DNA from: Thermoplasmata archaeon
GTDB lineage: Archaea > Thermoplasmatota > Thermoplasmata > Lutacidiplasmatales > UBA184
Direction of reading: 5' to 3'
Length of the DNA: 64,000 nucleotides
Assembly (NCBI GenBank): GCA_022749815.1
Contig: JAKIWV010000002.1
Span: 62,001 to 126,000, forward strand
The position numbers and the translations under genes are program-made. Below the pieces are notes generated by a model. That model was not told where the DNA came from. It did no database searches and worked only from the letters and a program-made list of their open reading frames with translations. Of the stretch, positions 784 through 56,618 are shown piece after piece (positions within the stretch are counted from its first letter, which is position 1; the number at the start of each line of letters is the position of its first letter).

Positions 784-2817
784 ATGAGCCGACGACCAGG
801 CCACCGCCGCCCGGGCGCGCTCGCCCTCCTCGGCTCGGCGCTGCTCGTCGCGCTGCTCCTCTGCGAACTCCCGGCCGCGGCGACCGTACCGGTCGCGTCC
901 GCGGCGCCCCTCTCGCCCGTCGGGTCCGCCGACGGCCTCCGCGCGACGTCGGCGAGCGGGTCTCCGTCGAGCGCGTCTCCGGTAGGTCCCCCCACCCCGT
1001 ACTGCTACCCGATCGACCCCACGGCCTGCGTCGCCGCCGCGTCATCGACCGAGCCGAACATCGTGCCGCCGGCCGGGACGACCTCCGCGACCGTCGAACC
1101 GACCTCGAACACGAGCCTTCCCTTGCTCGTGAAGTCTCGTCTCTCGCTGAATTGGACCAACGCGCCCACGCCGCATTTCGGCCCCAAATCGCCGATCACG
1201 CTCAACGCGACCGCGGTGCTCTGGAATGGGGACCCGTACTACTCGGTCTGGGACAACACCGTGTGGCACAGCGCCAGCAACAACACGCTGTGGACGTGGT
1301 ACGGGTACGAACCGCAGAACAAATCGTATCCGTTCTGGTACGAGGTGAACTTCTCGGCCCGCTCCCCGACGGGGCCGAACTTCTTCCCGGGCATGTCGGT
1401 GACGTGGTGGCTCGAGCTCACCTACAACCGGAGCGGAGTCTTCTCGCACAACGAGAGCCTGCGATTCAGTTACCGCTACGCCGGCGCGTGGGCGTATTCC
1501 CCCTGGCCCGGAGCGAAACAGTACGCCGGTAATGCCGCGGTGTCGCTCGACCTCAACCTCAGCTTCACTCCGGCGCGGCCGAACTGGAACGATTCGGTGG
1601 CCATCGCGATCGCGACCACCCCGGCGGACGTCTTCAGCCAAGCGAAGATCCGGTCGGCGTACGTCGACCTGAGCGAGGTCAGCGCCAACGGAACGCCGCT
1701 CGCGAACGGGACGCTGGTCTACGCCGTTCCCTCGAACGCCTCGGGAGGGGTGCCGGCCGCCACCGTCATCGTTCCGGCCACGTGGGCCCAGGCCGCCGGG
1801 GCCACCGTGACCTACCGGGTCACGGCGTTCGACGGCGCCGCCGACCAGCTCACGACGACGGTCCTCCATTACGTCGTGGGGGGGAATGGCTCGTTCGATT
1901 CCGGCCTGTTCGTCGACGACCTCGCCCTCACGATATCGCCCAACTCCATCGTGGCCGCGAGCAATGGGCCGGCGACGATACCGGCCGGCCAAATCGTGGC
2001 CCTCGGCCTCACGAGCCGGGACCCGACCTCGGCGATCCAGTTCGCCCGCATCCAATACTCGTTCTCCGCCCCGCTGGTCGGAGACCTCGTCCAGGGAACG
2101 TTGTCGTTGGGCCGTGGGACCTCCACCAACTGGACCGGGGCGCTGCCCGGGCTCCCGATCGACACGAACGTGAACTTCACGGTCCAGGCCTGGGATTTCC
2201 AGAACCGCCTCGAGTCGTCGCCGCGGTTCGCGTACCACGTCGAGGGTCTGGCGGGGTACGCCCCCGCGATCCCGGCCAACGCGACGTTCTTCTACGTGTT
2301 CGTCTACGACAGCGGGAGCGGCACCTGGGTCAACGGGGCCGTCGTCCAGATCCGCAGCCCGAGCGGCTACCTCAACTCGATCAGTCGGACGACGTTTGGA
2401 GTCGCCTATCCGAACGGGTCGTTCGACCCGTTCGCTCCGCTCCTGCTGCCGGCCAACGTGACCTACCGGATCTCCGTCGACGACCCGGCCTTCGTTCCCT
2501 CGAGCGGCCCCGTACAGCAACCGCTCGTGCTCGACTTCCCGGCACCGCACTCCCTCACCATCCCCGGTGGGGGAGAGCACGGGACGCTCATCCAGGCGCC
2601 GACCTACACCGTCCTCGTGGAGGGGGATGCCCTCCTCTTCTGGCTCAATGGAACCCCTCCCGGACCGGCGCCTTCGGCGTCGCTCGCTGCCGCACAGATC
2701 TCCCTTCCCCAGGTGGTGGGGCTCGTCGCGGCGGTCGCACTGACGGTGCCGTTGCTCGGCTGGTGGGGGCAACTCCGGAAGCGGCGCAAGGCGGAGGAAC
2801 GGAGGATCACGCTCTGA
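784..2817 (+). CDS. Large surface protein with signal peptide and C-terminal anchor, KAE-RRITL tail
   Basis: 677 residues. The N-terminus has a basic start and a hydrophobic core (about residues 11-30), typical of a Sec signal peptide. The long middle is rich in beta-forming residues and N-x-S/T sequons, as expected for a glycosylated extracytoplasmic protein, with Ig-like segments but no domain I can name. A single hydrophobic helix (about 641-661) is followed by a basic cytoplasmic tail ending KAEERRITL. The next protein ends KAEQRRITL, so the tail looks conserved. The stop overlaps the next start (ATGA at 2817-2820), pointing to coupled translation. Function unknown; adhesion or cell-envelope structure is only a guess. 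Confidence 0.8.
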   Translation: MSRRPGHRRPGALALLGSALLVALLLCELPAAATVPVASAAPLSPVGSADGLRATSASGSPSSASPVGPPTPYCYPIDPTACVAAASSTEPNIVPPAGTTSATVEPTSNTSLPLLVKSRLSLNWTNAPTPHFGPKSPITLNATAVLWNGDPYYSVWDNTVWHSASNNTLWTWYGYEPQNKSYPFWYEVNFSARSPTGPNFFPGMSVTWWLELTYNRSGVFSHNESLRFSYRYAGAWAYSPWPGAKQYAGNAAVSLDLNLSFTPARPNWNDSVAIAIATTPADVFSQAKIRSAYVDLSEVSANGTPLANGTLVYAVPSNASGGVPAATVIVPATWAQAAGATVTYRVTAFDGAADQLTTTVLHYVVGGNGSFDSGLFVDDLALTISPNSIVAASNGPATIPAGQIVALGLTSRDPTSAIQFARIQYSFSAPLVGDLVQGTLSLGRGTSTNWTGALPGLPIDTNVNFTVQAWDFQNRLESSPRFAYHVEGLAGYAPAIPANATFFYVFVYDSGSGTWVNGAVVQIRSPSGYLNSISRTTFGVAYPNGSFDPFAPLLLPANVTYRISVDDPAFVPSSGPVQQPLVLDFPAPHSLTIPGGGEHGTLIQAPTYTVLVEGDALLFWLNGTPPGPAPSASLAAAQISLPQVVGLVAAVALTVPLLGWWGQLRKRRKAEERRITL

Positions 2818-49673: not shown

Positions 49674-50582
49674 ATGTCCGCCGCCGACCGGGCCAGCCCC
49701 CTCCTACGCCGGGTCCTCATGGCCGCCGGCTACCACCTGGAAGACCGTCCCCTCGGTCTCCGCGCGATCCGGCGCGCCGACCGCCGGGCGATTGTGGTGG
49801 TCGCTTCGGCCAATTCGATCGAGGAGATTGCCTCGGAATTCCCGGACGAATGCGTGCGACGGACGATCGTGTGCGCCGAGGACCCAGGCGAACCCGCCCG
49901 AGCGTATGCCGCCGAACATGGGCTCGAAGTGCTCGTTCCCGAAACCCTGGGCCCGGCGATGGGAGAGATGCTGCTTCTCGGCCCTCCCGTGGAGTCCGCG
50001 GAGGTGGCCGTGCCAGGGCCAGTCACGACACCCCCCCTCGCCTTTCCCAACCAGGAGCGGACCATCCGACCCCGGCTGACCCGCGAGGACGCGGAACGAG
50101 TGGCTGGGGTGGATGGCTTCCGATACACCCTTCGATTGGTACCGTACTATGTGTTCTCGTACCGTGTCCGTACCGCGGCGCCGCATGGAGGGGCCGGACC
50201 CGTGACCGACCACCTGGCCGCGGTGAGCGCGATTTCCGGCAAGGTGGAGTACTGGGAGAACCGTGAGCCGGAATTCGTCGCCGATATCGAGGAGCCCCAT
50301 CAGCGACTCGAGCCCTCCATTCCCGAACCCACGGCCCAGCGGACCGCCGAGGACGCGACCCGAAGACGCCACACCGTCAGCGTCGACCATAGTGAACAGC
50401 ACGGCGGTGCATTGATCATCGAGCGGCGGCGAGTTCCGCCGGGTCCCGAGGACCTTCATTTCAGTCCCCCGGTGTTGATTCACTGCCCGTACTGGTACGT
50501 CGAAAGCGCCGACGGACGTGTGATCCTCGACGCCGTTTCGGGGACCAAGGCCCCCGAGAGCGAGCTCGACCCTGCCGCGTAG
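49674..50582 (+). CDS. Uncharacterised protein
   Basis: 302 residues from an ATG preceded by GGCAGG. The first ~100 residues alternate helices and strands around RRAIVVVASANSIEEIA and could form a small alpha/beta domain. The C-terminal half has two aromatic-rich blocks, LRLVPYYVFSYRVR and HCPYWYVES, followed by a GR-(V)-I-L-D-A-x-x-G turn. The centre is charged and Pro-rich. No family recognised. Next to a metallohydrolase and Cgi121 on the same strand, but with its own gap. Confidence 0.7.
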   Translation: MSAADRASPLLRRVLMAAGYHLEDRPLGLRAIRRADRRAIVVVASANSIEEIASEFPDECVRRTIVCAEDPGEPARAYAAEHGLEVLVPETLGPAMGEMLLLGPPVESAEVAVPGPVTTPPLAFPNQERTIRPRLTREDAERVAGVDGFRYTLRLVPYYVFSYRVRTAAPHGGAGPVTDHLAAVSAISGKVEYWENREPEFVADIEEPHQRLEPSIPEPTAQRTAEDATRRRHTVSVDHSEQHGGALIIERRRVPPGPEDLHFSPPVLIHCPYWYVESADGRVILDAVSGTKAPESELDPAA

Positions 50583-50639: not shown

Positions 50640-51251
50640 GTGTTCCTCCGACAGTTCCAAATCGGCCCGTACCAGAATTTCACCTACCTCGTCGACGACG
50701 GAGAGGGCGGACCCGCGGCCGTCGTCGACCCTTCGTACGGCGTGGAGCCGGTGCTCGAAGCGATCGACGAGCGCCGGGTCAAGGTCCAGTACATCCTGAA
50801 CACGCACAGTCACCAAGACCACTGGGCCGGGAACGCAGACGTGAAGGCCCGGACGGGAGCCAAGGTAGTGGCCCATCGACTGGCTCCACTGAGCCAAGAA
50901 ATCTCCGTCGACGACGGCGACAAATTCCAGGCCGGAACTCTTCGGTTCCAGGTCCTGCACACGCCGGGGCACACGCCCGACAGTGTGCTCTACATTTTCG
51001 ACGGTCACGCCGCCACCGGCGACACGCTCTTCGTCGGCGAGTGTGGACGCACCGACCTGCCGGGAGGAGATCCCGGAGCCCTGTACGATAGTCTGTTCTC
51101 GAAGGTCATCTACCTCGACGATGCGACGGTCGTCCTTCCGGGACACGACTACGGGGCGACGCCCACCTCAACGATCGGCCGGGAGAAGGCCGAGAGCTAC
51201 ATCCTGAAGCCACGAACAAAGGCCGAATTCATCCGTTTCCTCGTCGAGTGA
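50640..51251 (+). CDS. Metallo-beta-lactamase-fold hydrolase, persulfide dioxygenase/glyoxalase II type
   Basis: 203 residues. The HxHxDH metal motif is in THSHQDHWAGN; further metal ligands lie in HTPGHTPDS, GDTLFVGECGRTDLPGG and PGHDYG. The ECGRTDLPGGDP segment is typical of ETHE1-like persulfide dioxygenases and close glyoxalase II relatives. The family detoxifies sulfane sulfur or hydrolyses glutathione thioesters; archaea usually lack glutathione, so a low-molecular-weight persulfide is more likely. The stop overlaps the Cgi121 start. Confidence 0.88.
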   Translation: MFLRQFQIGPYQNFTYLVDDGEGGPAAVVDPSYGVEPVLEAIDERRVKVQYILNTHSHQDHWAGNADVKARTGAKVVAHRLAPLSQEISVDDGDKFQAGTLRFQVLHTPGHTPDSVLYIFDGHAATGDTLFVGECGRTDLPGGDPGALYDSLFSKVIYLDDATVVLPGHDYGATPTSTIGREKAESYILKPRTKAEFIRFLVE

Positions 51252-51835
51252 TGAACCAGGTCAACGTGCCGCCGATACCTCGGACCGAGACCCGCACCTT
51301 GCAGGCCATCGGGGCTCGACGGCCAGCGGGTAAATCACCGAGCCGCTTGGAACTCGTCCAGACTCTCCGCCGCCTTGCGGCGGAGGGCGGTGGGATCGTC
51401 GCGCTCTTCGACGCGCGAGCCATCGCCGGGGAACGCCACCTCCTTTCGGCATGGGCCCACATGGGCCGGACTCGGGCCCGTGGGGAGACCCGGCTCCGGG
51501 ACCGAGGCGCGGAGCTCGCGTTGTACGTGGCCGGGGATGATCAGCTTCCCCGGGCGCTCTCGAAGGTGGGCGTCGCCGAGGACAGCGTGGAGTTCGTGCT
51601 CTTGGCCGAGCGGCCACGGGAGCCCGAAACCCTGCTCGAGACCTTTGGGCTCGTGCGAGATGACTCGGTCTACCCTCGGCCCCCGAGCGAGGCTACGTTG
51701 GAACGCCTGGGCGTGAACGAGGCCGAGCGGAACGCTGTTCCCCGATCGGCGTGGGAGGGGCTGGTACTCGAGCGCGTGGCAATGCTCGAACTCTCCTCCG
51801 CCCACGCGTCGGCGGACCCGAGGGAAAAACCTTAG
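51251..51835 (+). CDS. KEOPS complex subunit Cgi121
   Basis: 194 residues from the ATG sharing one base with the previous stop; GTG 51248 is an alternative. The core DARAIAGERHLLSAWAHMGR, ELALYVAGDDQLPRALSKVG matches the Cgi121/TPRKB family. Cgi121 binds tRNA and the Bud32 kinase in KEOPS, which makes the t6A modification at position 37 of ANN-decoding tRNAs. Two tRNA genes follow directly, a suggestive neighbourhood, although neither is expected to be a t6A substrate. Confidence 0.78.
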   Translation: MNQVNVPPIPRTETRTLQAIGARRPAGKSPSRLELVQTLRRLAAEGGGIVALFDARAIAGERHLLSAWAHMGRTRARGETRLRDRGAELALYVAGDDQLPRALSKVGVAEDSVEFVLLAERPREPETLLETFGLVRDDSVYPRPPSEATLERLGVNEAERNAVPRSAWEGLVLERVAMLELSSAHASADPREKP

Positions 51836-51876: not shown

Positions 51877-51976
51877 GCAGGTGTAATCTAATGGCAGGAT
51901 ATCAGCCTTCCAAGCTGATGACCCGGGTTCGATTCGACCGGGCGACCGGCCCGTCGCGAGACTCCCGGCACCTGCA
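51877..51976 (+). tRNA. tRNA-Gly(UCC) interrupted by an intron in the T-loop
   Basis: The acceptor stem pairs GCAGGTG (51877-51883) with CACCTGC (51969-51975); the discriminator is A51976. The anticodon arm TCAGC/GCTGA encloses CTTCCAA, giving anticodon TCC at 51909-51911. The T-stem 5' strand CCGGG is at 51923-51927, but its partner CCCGG only appears at 51964-51968, so 29 bases must be removed. After removal the T-loop reads TTCGATT, as in normal tRNA-Gly. No CCA is encoded. Confidence 0.92.
51934..51962 (+). other. 29-base tRNA intron with bulge-helix-bulge motif at position 59/60
   Basis: T-stem CCGGG/CCCGG forms the outer helix; TTCG (51928-51931) pairs with CGAG (51957-51960) as the central 4-bp helix; the 3-base bulges are ATT (51932-51934) and ACT (51961-51963); the inner intron hairpin pairs CGGGC with GCCCG and CGA with TCG. 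Cleavage after the second base of each bulge gives a 29-base intron between tRNA positions 59 and 60, a non-canonical site. The archaeal splicing endonuclease would be needed and is not in this window. Confidence 0.85.
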
Positions 51977-52071: not shown

Positions 52072-52155
52072 GCTGAGGTAGCCTAGCCCGGAAAGGCGCC
52101 AGTCTTGAAAACTGGTGGCGGTTCCGCCTCGGGAGTTCAAATCTCCCCCTCAGCG
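52072..52155 (+). tRNA. tRNA-Ser(UGA)
   Basis: Acceptor GCTGAGG (52072-52078) pairs with CCTCAGC (52148-52154), discriminator G. The anticodon loop CTTGAAA in the stem CCAGT/ACTGG gives anticodon TGA at 52106-52108. A long variable arm (GGCGG...CCGCC) is the type II hallmark of serine. T-arm GGGAG-TTCAAAT-CTCCC. No CCA encoded. A TATA-like ATTATCAGAATAG lies about 35 bases upstream. Confidence 0.95.
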
Positions 52156-52198
52156 CTCCCCCTCTTCGCGCAGTGCTGCGTCGGTTCGCCGGGCAAAC

Positions 52199-52233: not shown

Positions 52234-54855
52234 ATGGTCGAGAGCTCCCCGGTCACCCCTATGATGGAGCAGTACGAGGCGGTCCGGGCACGATATCCCG
52301 GTCACCTCGTGTTGTTCCGAGTGGGGGATTTCTTCGAAACGTACGGGGAGGACGCCAAGCTCCTCTCCCGGGAGCTCGAGCTGGTCCTCACCGCTCGATC
52401 GGCCGATAGCAAGGGCGATCGGATCCCCATGGCCGGGGTTCCTCAGCACGCGATTGAAACCTACCTGGGTCGTCTGGTCCGTCGCGGCTACAAGGTCGCC
52501 CTCTGCGACCAGGTCGAAGACGCTCGTTTCGCCAAGGGACTGGTGCGCCGCGAGGTCACGCGAATCGTCACACCGGGCACTGTGCTCGACGAGAGGATCT
52601 TGCCGGGCCCGGACCACAACTTCCTGGCGGCGGTTTTCCGGCCCCGGCGAGGACCCGGCGGCTTCGCCGCTGTAGACATCACCACCGGGGAGCTGTTCAG
52701 CGGCCCCACGCCCGTGGCCGGCCTGGAGGGATTCGCGGAAGCGCTCACCGCCTTCGACCCGCGGGAGATCCTCGTCGGGGCGGACGAGGGACCCGAAGAG
52801 CTCGAGCGGTGGCTCCACCGCGAGTACCCCCGCGCCCGCATCGAAACACCCCGTCCGTCGACGCCGCCCGACGATCTACCCGAGGCGTTCCGTGGGGAGG
52901 GGGGTTCACCGGGCGAAGTCGCCGCCCGTCTCGCACTCGCGGTCTACCTCCACTCGACCCAGCCGAAGGTCCTCCGGTTCGTCGAGCGCGTGAGCCTCGG
53001 AGGGCCCGCGACCCGCCTCCGCCTCGACGCGAAGAGCCTCCGACATCTCGAGATCTCTCAACCGATGGACCCCGATTCGGTCGGGACCCCGACGTTGCTC
53101 GAGGTCCTCGACGAGACGGTCACCTCCTCGGGACGACGGACCCTCGCGTTCTGGTTGCGGAACCCGCTCGCCGACGTCGCGGCGATCCACCAGCGTCAGG
53201 AGACCGTCGAGAGTCTCCGGGCCCGGGGTCCGTGGCTCCCCGTCCTCCGTGAGGAGCTCCGTCGAGTGCCCGATCTGGCCCGCATCGGGGCGCGCATCGC
53301 CGGACGGCGGGTCCGTCCCTCCGACCTGCTCGGGCTCGCCCAGGGCCTCCGGGCGGCGCGCCGGGTCGCGGACGGACTGAAGGGAGGGAGCCCGCCGACG
53401 CCGATCGACGCCGGGATCGAGGAGCTGAGAGTACTGGAACCTGTCGCAGAACGGCTCGAGCGCGCGATCCAGGATCCCCCTCCGTCCAGCGTGGAGGCAG
53501 GCCGGTTGTTCCGTGCCGGAGCCGACGCCGAGGTGGACCGTCTCTCCGAGACGGAAACGAGCGGCCTCGGCGAGCTCGAGTCGCTCGAACGACGGGAGCG
53601 GGAATCGTCGGGTCTCCGTTCGGTGAAGGTCGGGTACAACCAGGTCTTCGGCTACTACCTCGAGGTCCCGAGGAACCAGAGCGCCCTCGTTCCCCCCCAC
53701 TTCGAACGTCGACAAACCCTCGCCGGTTCCGAGCGCTACACATCGAACGAGCTGCGCGCGCTCGAGGAGCGGATCCTCACTGCCCGCGAAGCCCTCCGAA
53801 GCCGAGAGCTCGAGGTCTGGGAACTGCTCCTGAAGGACCTCGAATCCGTCGTGCCGGCCCTCTACCGGCTCGGGCGTCGGCTCGGGGAGGTCGACGTGTT
53901 GACGACGTTCGCGGCCCAGGCCCAGGAGCGCGGGTACGTACGTCCGCTCGTCGACGACAGCCGGCTTCTCCAGATCCGCGACGGTCGCCACCCGATCCTG
54001 GAGCGGCAGCTTCGGAAGGAGTTCGTCCCCAACGACACCGATCTAGACCCCGACACCGGGCGGCTCGTCTTGCTAACGGGCCCCAACATGTCCGGCAAGT
54101 CGACGTACATGCGGCAGGTGGGGCTGTTGGTCGTGATGGCCCAAGTAGGGGCCTTCGTCCCCGCCCGCTTCGCACGGATCGGCCGGGTGACCGCCCTGTT
54201 CACACGGATGGGGTTCACCGACGCTATCGGTCGAGGGAAGTCGAGCTTCCTTGTCGAGATGAGCGAGGTCGCCGAGATCCTTCGGGACGCAGACGACCGT
54301 AGCTTGGTCCTCCTCGACGAAGTGGGCCGGGGCACGAGCACCTTCGACGGCCTGGCGCTCGCGTGGGCAACTCTCCAGTATCTCCACGACCGGATCCGCT
54401 GCCGGACGATTGTCGCGACGCACTTCCACCAACTCACGAGCTTGGTGGACGGACTGTCGTCGGCCCGGAACGCCCACCTCGCCGTGCTCGAGCATGAAAA
54501 CGAGATCGTCTTCCTGCGCACCCTGGTCCCCGGAAGTACAGACCGAAGCCTCGGGCTGCACGTCGCTCGCGTGGCCGGTGTGCCGCCGGAGGTGTTGGCC
54601 GAGTCCGAACGCCTGCTCAAGCACCTTGAATCCGAAGGAATCGCGCTCCCCGGACCCCGGAACGCCTCCAAGAACCGACCCTCTCGGTACACCCAGGCGA
54701 TTCTCCTGCCGTCCCCGGCCTCGCCCCACTCGGAGTTCGAGCGGGCCCTGGCGGCGCTCGACCTCGATTCGCTGAGCCCGCTCGACGCCCACCGTTGGCT
54801 CGCGGAGTGGCGACGTCGCCTGGAGAGCCGGCCGGTGGGCGAGGCTCCTCCGTGA
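52234..54855 (+). CDS. mutS: DNA mismatch repair protein MutS
   Basis: 873 residues, bacterial MutS1 length. The mismatch-recognition motif F-x-E is present in GDFFET. The ATPase has Walker A GPNMSGKST, the ED..GRGTSTFDGLA signature and the ATHFHQL switch. It recognises mismatches and recruits MutL. The MutS-MutL pair is patchy in archaea and is generally regarded as acquired from bacteria; the codon use and GC here look like the neighbours. The stop overlaps mutL (GTGA). Confidence 0.97.
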   Translation: MVESSPVTPMMEQYEAVRARYPGHLVLFRVGDFFETYGEDAKLLSRELELVLTARSADSKGDRIPMAGVPQHAIETYLGRLVRRGYKVALCDQVEDARFAKGLVRREVTRIVTPGTVLDERILPGPDHNFLAAVFRPRRGPGGFAAVDITTGELFSGPTPVAGLEGFAEALTAFDPREILVGADEGPEELERWLHREYPRARIETPRPSTPPDDLPEAFRGEGGSPGEVAARLALAVYLHSTQPKVLRFVERVSLGGPATRLRLDAKSLRHLEISQPMDPDSVGTPTLLEVLDETVTSSGRRTLAFWLRNPLADVAAIHQRQETVESLRARGPWLPVLREELRRVPDLARIGARIAGRRVRPSDLLGLAQGLRAARRVADGLKGGSPPTPIDAGIEELRVLEPVAERLERAIQDPPPSSVEAGRLFRAGADAEVDRLSETETSGLGELESLERRERESSGLRSVKVGYNQVFGYYLEVPRNQSALVPPHFERRQTLAGSERYTSNELRALEERILTAREALRSRELEVWELLLKDLESVVPALYRLGRRLGEVDVLTTFAAQAQERGYVRPLVDDSRLLQIRDGRHPILERQLRKEFVPNDTDLDPDTGRLVLLTGPNMSGKSTYMRQVGLLVVMAQVGAFVPARFARIGRVTALFTRMGFTDAIGRGKSSFLVEMSEVAEILRDADDRSLVLLDEVGRGTSTFDGLALAWATLQYLHDRIRCRTIVATHFHQLTSLVDGLSSARNAHLAVLEHENEIVFLRTLVPGSTDRSLGLHVARVAGVPPEVLAESERLLKHLESEGIALPGPRNASKNRPSRYTQAILLPSPASPHSEFERALAALDLDSLSPLDAHRWLAEWRRRLESRPVGEAPP

Positions 54856-56618
54856 CGCCGTCCCTTGCGCGGCATCCAGCGATCCGGCGGTTGCCGCCGG
54901 AGGCGATCGAGAAGATCGCGGCCGGGGAGGTCGTCGAAGGGCCGGCCTCCATCGTGAAGGAACTCGTGGAGAACGCGATCGACGCGGGCGCTACCGAGGT
55001 CGAGATTCGCCTCGAAGGGGGAGGGCTCGAGCGGGTCGTGGTGTCCGACGACGGGTGGGGCATCCCCGCCGGCGAGCTGCCTCTCGCCATCGAACGGCAC
55101 GCCACGAGCAAGATCTCGGGGGCCGGGGACCTCGCTCGGGTGTCGAGCCTCGGATTCCGGGGGGAGGCCCTGGCCGCCGTGGCGCAGGTCTCCCGTCTCC
55201 GTATTCTCTCTCGAACGCCGGACGCCGCGAGCGCCCACGGCCTCACCGCAGAGGGAGGGCAGCTGGGGGCACCGTTCGAGGCGGGTCGATCGGTAGGCAC
55301 CACCGTCGACGTTCGAGACCTCTTCTTCAACACTCCCGCGCGACGCAAATTCTCTCGGAGCCCCGCCGCCGAGCAGGTCGAGGTGGTCGCGACCGTCGAA
55401 CGACTGTATCTGGCTCATCCGACCGTGGCGTTCGCCATCGCGGGCGGCCAACAGGAGATCGCTCGGTATCCCCGGGCCGCGAGCCTCGAGGAGGCCGGAG
55501 CCTGGGTCTTCGGGTCCGGCTTCGTCGGAGCCCACTTCTCGGTCCGCTCCGCTCCCCACGACGCCATCCAATTCTCCGGGGTGTTCGCTCGTCCCACGCT
55601 CACCCGGGGAACCTCGGCAGCGGTCTGCATCGTTGTGAACGGCCGCGCCATCATCTCTCGTCCGCTGGCCCAGGCCGTTCGGGCGGCGTACCAGGACTAC
55701 CTGCCGCGCACGCGGTTCCCGGTCGGAGCGGTTCAGTTGAGCCTCGACCCGGCCCGGGTGGACGTTAACGTTCACCCGACGAAGCGCGAGGTGCGCATCC
55801 AAGGGGAACGCGAGGTGGCCGACGCCCTTCGGCGCGGGATCCGTACCGCTCTGGTCGGGGGCCCCCAGGTCGCCGAGATCGGGACTCCGAGGGCGGGGCC
55901 GAAGGGATCGCGGGGGGAGACCGGGTGGGGTGCACCGACGACCCGTCGGCCTCTCACCCCCCCGATGGCGGCCTTGCCGGCGACGCAGACGCGCCTGGAT
56001 GTTGCCGAAGGCACACGTCGGATCGTTGGAACGGCTCGGCACCCGGCGCTCGCGTTGCTCGGCTCGCTCTTCCAACTCTACTGGGTCGCCGAGTCCGACG
56101 GGGACCTGGTCCTCATCGACCAGCACGCGGCGAGCGAGCGGGTGCTCTACGACGAGCTCCGGGCCGCCGGTCGATTGGGTCGGCAGGAGCTCATGGAGCC
56201 TGTCCGGGTTCCGTTGACCGCGCGCCAGCGTTCCGCGCTCTCGGCCCATGCGGAGACGCTCCAGGCTTCCGGATTCACCGTGGAGTCCTTTGGAGGGGAC
56301 CAGTTCCGGGTCCAGAGCGTTCCGTCGTATCGTGGCCATCGGGCCGAGACGGGGAGTCTCCCCGCGCTATTGGACGAGCTCGCGGACGGGGGTCGACCCA
56401 CGGTTCCGGAGGGACTCGCGGAACGGGTCGCCGCCTCGGTGGCTTGCCATGCGGCCGTGCGCGCGGGCGATGAGGTCGGTGCGGAAGAGATCGGCCGGAT
56501 CCTCGAAGCGCTCTATCGGACCGAGACGCCGGCCTACGCGTGTCCCCACGGCCGTCCGGTGCTGATCCGGCTCTCCCGGAGCCGGCTCGACGGTTGGTTC
56601 CTTCGCCGGGCGCCCTAG
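54852..56618 (+). CDS. mutL: DNA mismatch repair protein MutL
   Basis: 588 residues from the GTG overlapping the mutS stop. The GHKL ATPase has VKELVENAIDAG, the DDGWGI box, and KISGAGDL/LGFRGEAL. The C-terminal endonuclease region has DQHAASERVLYDE, with Asp at one position where the consensus has Glu, and the metal-binding CPHGRP motif, so nicking activity is likely. Without MutH in archaea this fits the MutL-nickase pathway. Converges with the glycosyltransferase gene and shares a CTAG (56615-56618). Confidence 0.95.
   Translation: MTPSLARHPAIRRLPPEAIEKIAAGEVVEGPASIVKELVENAIDAGATEVEIRLEGGGLERVVVSDDGWGIPAGELPLAIERHATSKISGAGDLARVSSLGFRGEALAAVAQVSRLRILSRTPDAASAHGLTAEGGQLGAPFEAGRSVGTTVDVRDLFFNTPARRKFSRSPAAEQVEVVATVERLYLAHPTVAFAIAGGQQEIARYPRAASLEEAGAWVFGSGFVGAHFSVRSAPHDAIQFSGVFARPTLTRGTSAAVCIVVNGRAIISRPLAQAVRAAYQDYLPRTRFPVGAVQLSLDPARVDVNVHPTKREVRIQGEREVADALRRGIRTALVGGPQVAEIGTPRAGPKGSRGETGWGAPTTRRPLTPPMAALPATQTRLDVAEGTRRIVGTARHPALALLGSLFQLYWVAESDGDLVLIDQHAASERVLYDELRAAGRLGRQELMEPVRVPLTARQRSALSAHAETLQASGFTVESFGGDQFRVQSVPSYRGHRAETGSLPALLDELADGGRPTVPEGLAERVAASVACHAAVRAGDEVGAEEIGRILEALYRTETPAYACPHGRPVLIRLSRSRLDGWFLRRAP

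Follow-up and report, generated by a model that had tools for sequence, protein, structure and literature searches.

A T-loop intron in the tRNA-Gly(UCC) gene of a Thermoplasmatota archaeon, and a lineage-wide pattern of such introns alongside a fused EndA without a specificity loop

Can a tRNA gene that is interrupted in its T-loop give rise to a normal tRNA in an archaeon outside the Crenarchaeota, and what kind of splicing endonuclease would be required? The question is raised by a tRNA-Gly(UCC) gene, with anticodon TCC, at 51877-51976 on the + strand of the window (the whole stretch of 64,000 nucleotides analysed). As judged by sequence reading and folding, the gene carries a 29-nt T-loop intron at 59/60 in a strict bulge-helix-bulge. 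Its parts are as follows.

51877..51933, + strand: 5' exon of tRNA-Gly(UCC), tRNA positions 1-59 (sequence; ARAGORN call on the in-silico spliced product)
51934..51962, + strand: 29-nt T-loop intron (59/60), a hairpin within the strict bulge-helix-bulge (fold; 10 orthologues, paired changes)
51963..51976, + strand: 3' exon with T60, the T-stem 3' strand, the acceptor 3' strand and discriminator A (sequence; 10/10 orthologues)
51877-51883 and 51969-51975, + strand: acceptor stem GCAGGTG/CACCTGC, followed by discriminator A at 51976
51923-51927 and 51964-51968, + strand: T-stem CCGGG/CCCGG, the outer helix
51928..51931 and 51957-51960, + strand: central helix of 4 bp, TTCG (T54 T55 C56 G57)/CGAG (sequence, fold)
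51932..51934, + strand: 5' bulge ATT, predicted cut after 51933 (sequence, fold)
51961..51963, + strand: 3' bulge ACT, predicted cut after 51962 (sequence, fold)
51935-51938 and 51953-51956, + strand: inner helix CGAC/GTCG

The EndA cut in a bulge-helix-bulge falls after the second bulge base, which places the intron at 51934-51962; moving the boundaries by one base leaves the spliced product, of 71 nt, identical. Folded without constraints, the 100-nt precursor RNA (-44.2 kcal/mol, z -3.58, with 2/200 shuffles equally good) yields the T-stem, a 3-nt bulge, UUCG/CGAG, a second 3-nt bulge and the inner hairpin. All four central pairs are present, and the exon-intron junctions show the strict arrangement of a 3-nt bulge, a 4-bp helix and a 3-nt bulge. 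ARAGORN misses the unspliced gene, reporting the neighbouring tRNA-Ser alone, and calls tRNA-Gly(tcc) once the intron is removed in silico, which restores a normal tRNA. The Rfam RF00005 match is truncated (30.8 bits, 51884-51941).

The intron is present in 10/10 aligned Gly-UCC orthologues from 10 genomes and five genera (six genomes of the same genus and one from each of four others). Among 290 pair cells, 98.6% are standard, and 10 cells, in 4 pairs, are altered on both sides, a number reached by 0/500 shuffles; the count of pair types does not exceed that of shuffled alignments (262/500). From genus to genus most of the inner hairpin sequence differs, with its pairing kept. Because the orthologues keep the structure with paired changes, the T-loop intron of tRNA-Gly(UCC) is confirmed as real, far beyond chance. 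The sequence-only reading of this locus had proposed a 29-base intron at 59/60, a complete bulge-helix-bulge and a normal tRNA after splicing; the coordinates and anatomy are borne out by the sequence and the unconstrained fold, the motif also by the paired changes, and the product by its recognition as Gly(tcc).

That reading also held that a heterotetrameric or otherwise expanded endonuclease would usually be needed away from the canonical site, a view at odds with what the source genome (2.08 Mb in 5 contigs, rated 93.2% complete) contains. A search to E values of up to 1 returned one EndA ORF, of 355 aa, and neither a separate beta subunit nor a third EndA unit in this 93.2%-complete genome. 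The protein is fused, a single chain holding N-terminal and catalytic domains, two of each, as in alpha'2-type enzymes, in which one chain holds two EndA units and the C-terminal unit carries Tyr-His-Lys. In an alignment of 33 EndAs, Tyr291, His299 and Lys330 do not vary; from alignment to A. fulgidus EndA and the published Tyr-His-Lys triad, which we take to be catalytic, it follows that these are the predicted catalytic residues. The start of the catalytic unit shows no gap relative to A. fulgidus or M. jannaschii EndA that would accommodate a specificity-loop insertion, and the Crenarchaea- or ARMAN-specific loop is absent from this EndA and from the 43 relatives aligned, of 80 fetched. By sequence and by fold, the latter in a single-chain structure model (mean pLDDT 93.6), its closest solved counterparts are 5x89, a fusion construct of M. 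kandleri (30% identity, TM 0.88/0.92), and A. fulgidus EndA. The sole EndA found is thus a fused two-unit enzyme without a specificity loop. A gene for the RtcB ligase is present (E 1.8e-171).

We favour, with a probability of about 0.92, a working gene: in the precursor, the T-loop would form a strict bulge-helix-bulge, the fused two-unit EndA would cut after 51933 and 51962, and RtcB would ligate the exons into the normal 71-nt tRNA. This reading rests on gene anatomy, paired changes, the lineage-wide set described below, the loopless EndA architecture and the presence of RtcB; EndA cleavage, RtcB ligation and intron spread are what we infer from it. The T-loop would be a ready-made landing site. 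The T-stem would serve as the outer helix and T54-T55-C56 as the exon side of the central helix, both, like T60, near-universal in these tRNAs, so that an intron would need to bring little more than a hairpin and, after it, roughly N-G-A-R-N-N. With the exon half of the motif supplied by the T-stem and TTC in any tRNA, a strict-motif EndA could suffice away from 37/38. The homodimeric EndA of Ferroplasma, described as cutting minimal bulge-helix-bulges (PMC8707768, in part), fits the view that a strict T-loop motif needs no special enzyme help; against it, homodimeric EndAs are described in parts of two papers as restricted to canonical motifs (PMC4033280, PMC12397907).

How strict the motif is across the lineage can be read from 114 T-loop introns, kept from 149 candidate parses by requiring a full acceptor and T-stem, at least 2/4 central pairs, at least 1/4 inner pairs and a length of 20-50; the 35 dropped were, on reading, mostly chance parses in flanks. 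The introns are related sequences rather than independent draws. Inner-helix pairs 1-4 are formed in 110, 106, 103 and 101 of 114 (shuffle maxima 80, 70, 70 and 67), counts raised by the filtering on partial pairing. The last base of the 3' bulge is T in 114/114. Position 57 and its partner form G-C in 40 introns and A-U in 9, show A opposite G in 61 and other combinations in 4; they pair in 49/114 (shuffle mean 23.8, maximum 34) and so vary together. In introns with A57, the opposite base is G in 61/73, rather than U, and the fourth central pair is then usually a non-Watson-Crick A-G. Since A opposite G leaves that pair non-Watson-Crick, more than half of the 114 are not perfectly strict, and the enzyme may tolerate or prefer such a pair. 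ARAGORN recognizes 44 of the 114 before and 113 after in-silico splicing; by missing 70 unspliced, it overlooks many genes in such genomes.

The excess of A opposite G also bears on an alternative that differs from the favoured reading in enzyme tolerance alone: a relaxed-specificity endonuclease, either an EndA like that of M. kandleri, which is described as constrained broad without loops (PMC6379350, in part), or one aided by an unrecognised partner. The nearest solved sequence and fold, 5x89, are consistent with this. Most of the motif is nevertheless a strict bulge-helix-bulge, the Gly intron has all four central pairs, and no second EndA gene was found in the source genome; we consider relaxed specificity unlikely, while giving it some weight.

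It is far less probable that the insertion destroyed this copy, leaving a pseudogene, and that GGA codons are served by another gene. ARAGORN's failure to call the gene would fit, and another copy could lie in the missing part of a 93.2% complete genome. No second Gly(UCC) gene was found in the source genome at that completeness, however, where the other Gly genes are Gly-CCC and Gly-GCC alone; an intact second copy had been named as the observation that would speak for a dead gene. An intact 3' half of the gene, sought across the window, gave 0 matches. The same intron occurs in the 10 genomes of five genera, with the acceptor stem, T-stem and anticodon stem 100% paired across the orthologues. 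This conservation largely refutes the pseudogene and agrees with the earlier view of a functional gene. That there is no splicing at 59/60, CCCGG pairing instead with a nearer CCGGG (51938-51942) and the remainder forming a trailer, is hardly credible: the Rfam alignment does stop at 51941, but this pairing leaves the acceptor 3' strand unexplained, is unused in the minimum-energy fold and lacks its CCGGG in the orthologues of G001, G004, G005, G011, G014, G019 and G041.

The Gly gene is one of many. An RF00005 search of the source genome gave 41 matches, and together with those of a purpose-built model, read individually, they amount to about 46 tRNA genes, about 21 of which carry introns: 25 are intronless, 4 have canonical 37/38 introns, 3 a D-loop intron only and 14 a T-loop intron. 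The genes concerned are:

Canonical 37/38 introns: Met, Tyr, Glu-UUC, Leu-UAA
D-loop intron alone: iMet, Arg-GCG, Pro-UGG
T-loop introns: Gly-UCC, Arg-UCU, Arg-UCG, Asn, Asp, Glu-CUC, Gln-CUG, Ala-GGC, His, Lys-UUU, Ser-GCU, Ser-GGA, Ser-CGA, Leu-UAG

Thirteen of the T-loop introns were parsed by script and that of Leu-UAG was read by eye. Lys-UUU and Leu-UAG have a D-loop intron in addition, and D-loop introns thus occur at five loci (L037, L039, L050, L054 and L055: iMet, Arg(GCG), Lys(UUU), Leu(UAG) and Pro(UGG)). Neither model found a tRNA-Trp in the source genome; the gene may contain a larger intron or lie in the part of the genome that is missing. The genome has a single PF00589 integrase (C1:633669), about 4 kb from an intronless tRNA-Cys, which is too few for a comparison bearing on the idea that T-loop introns protect tRNA attachment sites by disrupting them.

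To follow the introns through relatives, we used a covariance model, R1, of seven T-loop-intron tRNAs, N-padded to equal length and with Arg(UCG) left out; 97.0% of 203 pair cells in its alignment are standard, a figure that leans upward because the structure was drawn on those same sequences. R1 matches 6/6 genomes of the genus at E 1e-4, 106/106 genomes of the order at E 1e-11 and 103/103 sampled genomes of the source family, with 1 to 10 matches each, mostly 4 to 9. The introns of Gly, Arg-UCU, Ala, Gln, Asp and Lys are common to all five genera sampled. The related named records are metagenome-assembled genomes, which is what an assembly or binning artefact would have in its favour, but the 106/106 order genomes and the Gly intron in 10 orthologues make that explanation negligible. 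The EndA relatives are Thermoplasmata MAGs, among them UBA184 and those of the AcS and SubAcS series. A stretch of 1,500 bases in G029, a genome of the source family, is identical to the UBA184 contig. UBA184 and the AcS genomes are placed in one family, Ca. Lutacidiplasmatales (PMC9287336, in part); the source family is that of UBA184, Ca. Lutacidiplasmatales, within the Thermoplasmatota. The host is accordingly an archaeon outside the Crenarchaeota, as had been supposed from the window.

With 10 candidates scored per genome, 190/400 genomes of the class sample match R1: 95 belong to the source family (1 to 9 matches each), and 95/305 lie outside it (1 or 2 each). Among the single matches outside the family, some are to intronless tRNAs (9/40 matches in 20 genomes are <=75 nt), and 24/30 loci from those 20 genomes parse as T-loop introns. 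In the phylum sample, 110/292 genomes match, with up to 7 matches in families f37, f51 and f60 of other classes; of the longer matches among those listed, 40 loci were fetched and 40/40 parse as T-loop introns. Because R1 selects for T-loop introns, the outside-family counts show presence, not share. Isoacceptors with a T-loop intron outside the family include Arg-UCU (f5, f8, f33), Lys-UUU (f2, f3, f22, f29, f30), Ala, Met and Asp. With 14 such genes in the source genome and a phylum-wide pattern, the intron is no isolated oddity, contrary to what the first reading had implied, and the interest lies less in the single Gly gene than in the occurrence of such introns across the lineage together with a plain EndA.

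A ready-made landing site would enable T-loop introns to spread between tRNAs. In G424, a genome of another class of the phylum, strings of 19 and 13 nt recur among the T-loop introns of Ala(UGC), Asp(GUC) and Glu(CUC); 2000 shuffles of the first pair gave strings of at most 12. The introns sharing these long identical strings are at loci L311, L312 and L327. This suggests that introns were copied between tRNAs, as proposed for Thermoproteales. Copying within the source genome was considered and found unsupported: the longest shared string there is 11 nt, between Arg(UCG) and Asp, and is mostly motif. Since copying is not visible there, these introns may be old. A broader reading could as well prove wrong as right: the Thermoplasmatota T-loop would be a landing site for portable mini-introns, one hairpin unit fitting any tRNA. 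Copied across isoacceptors by reverse splicing or gene conversion and handled by an ordinary loopless EndA, they would have come to occupy ~30% of the tRNA genes of the Lutacidiplasmatales family with no change of enzyme type. If true, this would go against the view that intron diversity follows EndA architecture.

Position 59/60 is among the noncanonical archaeal tRNA intron positions noted in PMC4090602 (in part). The 59/60 introns of Crenarchaeota and Nanoarchaeota share the position, the bulge-helix-bulge and the occurrence in several tRNAs per genome; in reviews they are tied to an (alpha-beta)2 EndA with a specificity loop, whereas here a loopless, fused EndA of a Thermoplasmatota archaeon goes with 14 T-loop sites vs 4 canonical ones. 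As in Thermoproteales, similar introns occur in different tRNAs of one genome in G424 (Ala, Asp, Glu), but that genome is from a different phylum and its introns are all in the T-loop, and those of the source genome share little beyond the motif. Permuted tRNA genes of Thermofilum pendens and Cyanidioschyzon merolae have the same T-loop junction, 59/60 (PMC3218864, in part), whereas here the gene order is normal and the intron is removed. The Asgard Atabeyarchaeia and Freyarchaeia likewise come from soil and carry numerous noncanonical tRNA introns, often multiple ones, affecting 92-95% of their tRNA genes (PMC11291895, in part) compared with about 21/46 here.

In the accessible parts of the literature, euryarchaeal homodimeric EndAs go with single 37/38 introns, and noncanonical introns are said to have followed the evolution of broad-specificity EndAs (PMC4090602, PMC4033280). 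The same parts, with those of PMC6379350 and PMC12397907, link noncanonical introns to loop-bearing EndAs and single canonical introns to Euryarchaeota, and Korarchaeum is called the sole archaeon combining an alpha2 EndA with noncanonical introns (PMC4033280). The Thermoplasmatota pattern breaks this rule of homodimeric EndA and canonical introns on a large scale; a simple reason suggests itself, in that the T-loop supplies half of the strict motif. A single enzyme and its natural substrates make it possible to test the hypothesis of intron and EndA co-evolution directly. No paper on Thermoplasmatota T-loop introns was apparent by title or opening abstract; subscription papers and supplements fall outside that scope, and an earlier mention is possible. 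In the available part of PMC9287336, on the Lutacidiplasmatales, the word 'intron' occurs 0 times.

Around the Gly gene, a search for repeats found none. Two flanking features were noted:

51825..51834, + strand: weak promoter-like A/T-rich element aaaaacctta, 43-52 bases upstream of the Gly gene
52072..52156, + strand: tRNA-Ser(UGA), the intronless neighbour (ARAGORN, Rfam)

The element overlaps the end of the ORF at 51248-51835, and an A/T-rich upstream stretch precedes tRNA genes of this genome both with and without T-loop introns. Neither that ORF nor the one at 49674-50582, both beside the tRNA gene, matches Pfam at 1e-5. Allowing introns, ARAGORN also reports a tRNA-Leu(cag) with a 32-nt intron at window 2318-2443, which is absent from the Rfam matches and probably false. 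Directly after the tRNA pair, at window 52234-56618, lie adjacent MutS and MutL genes.
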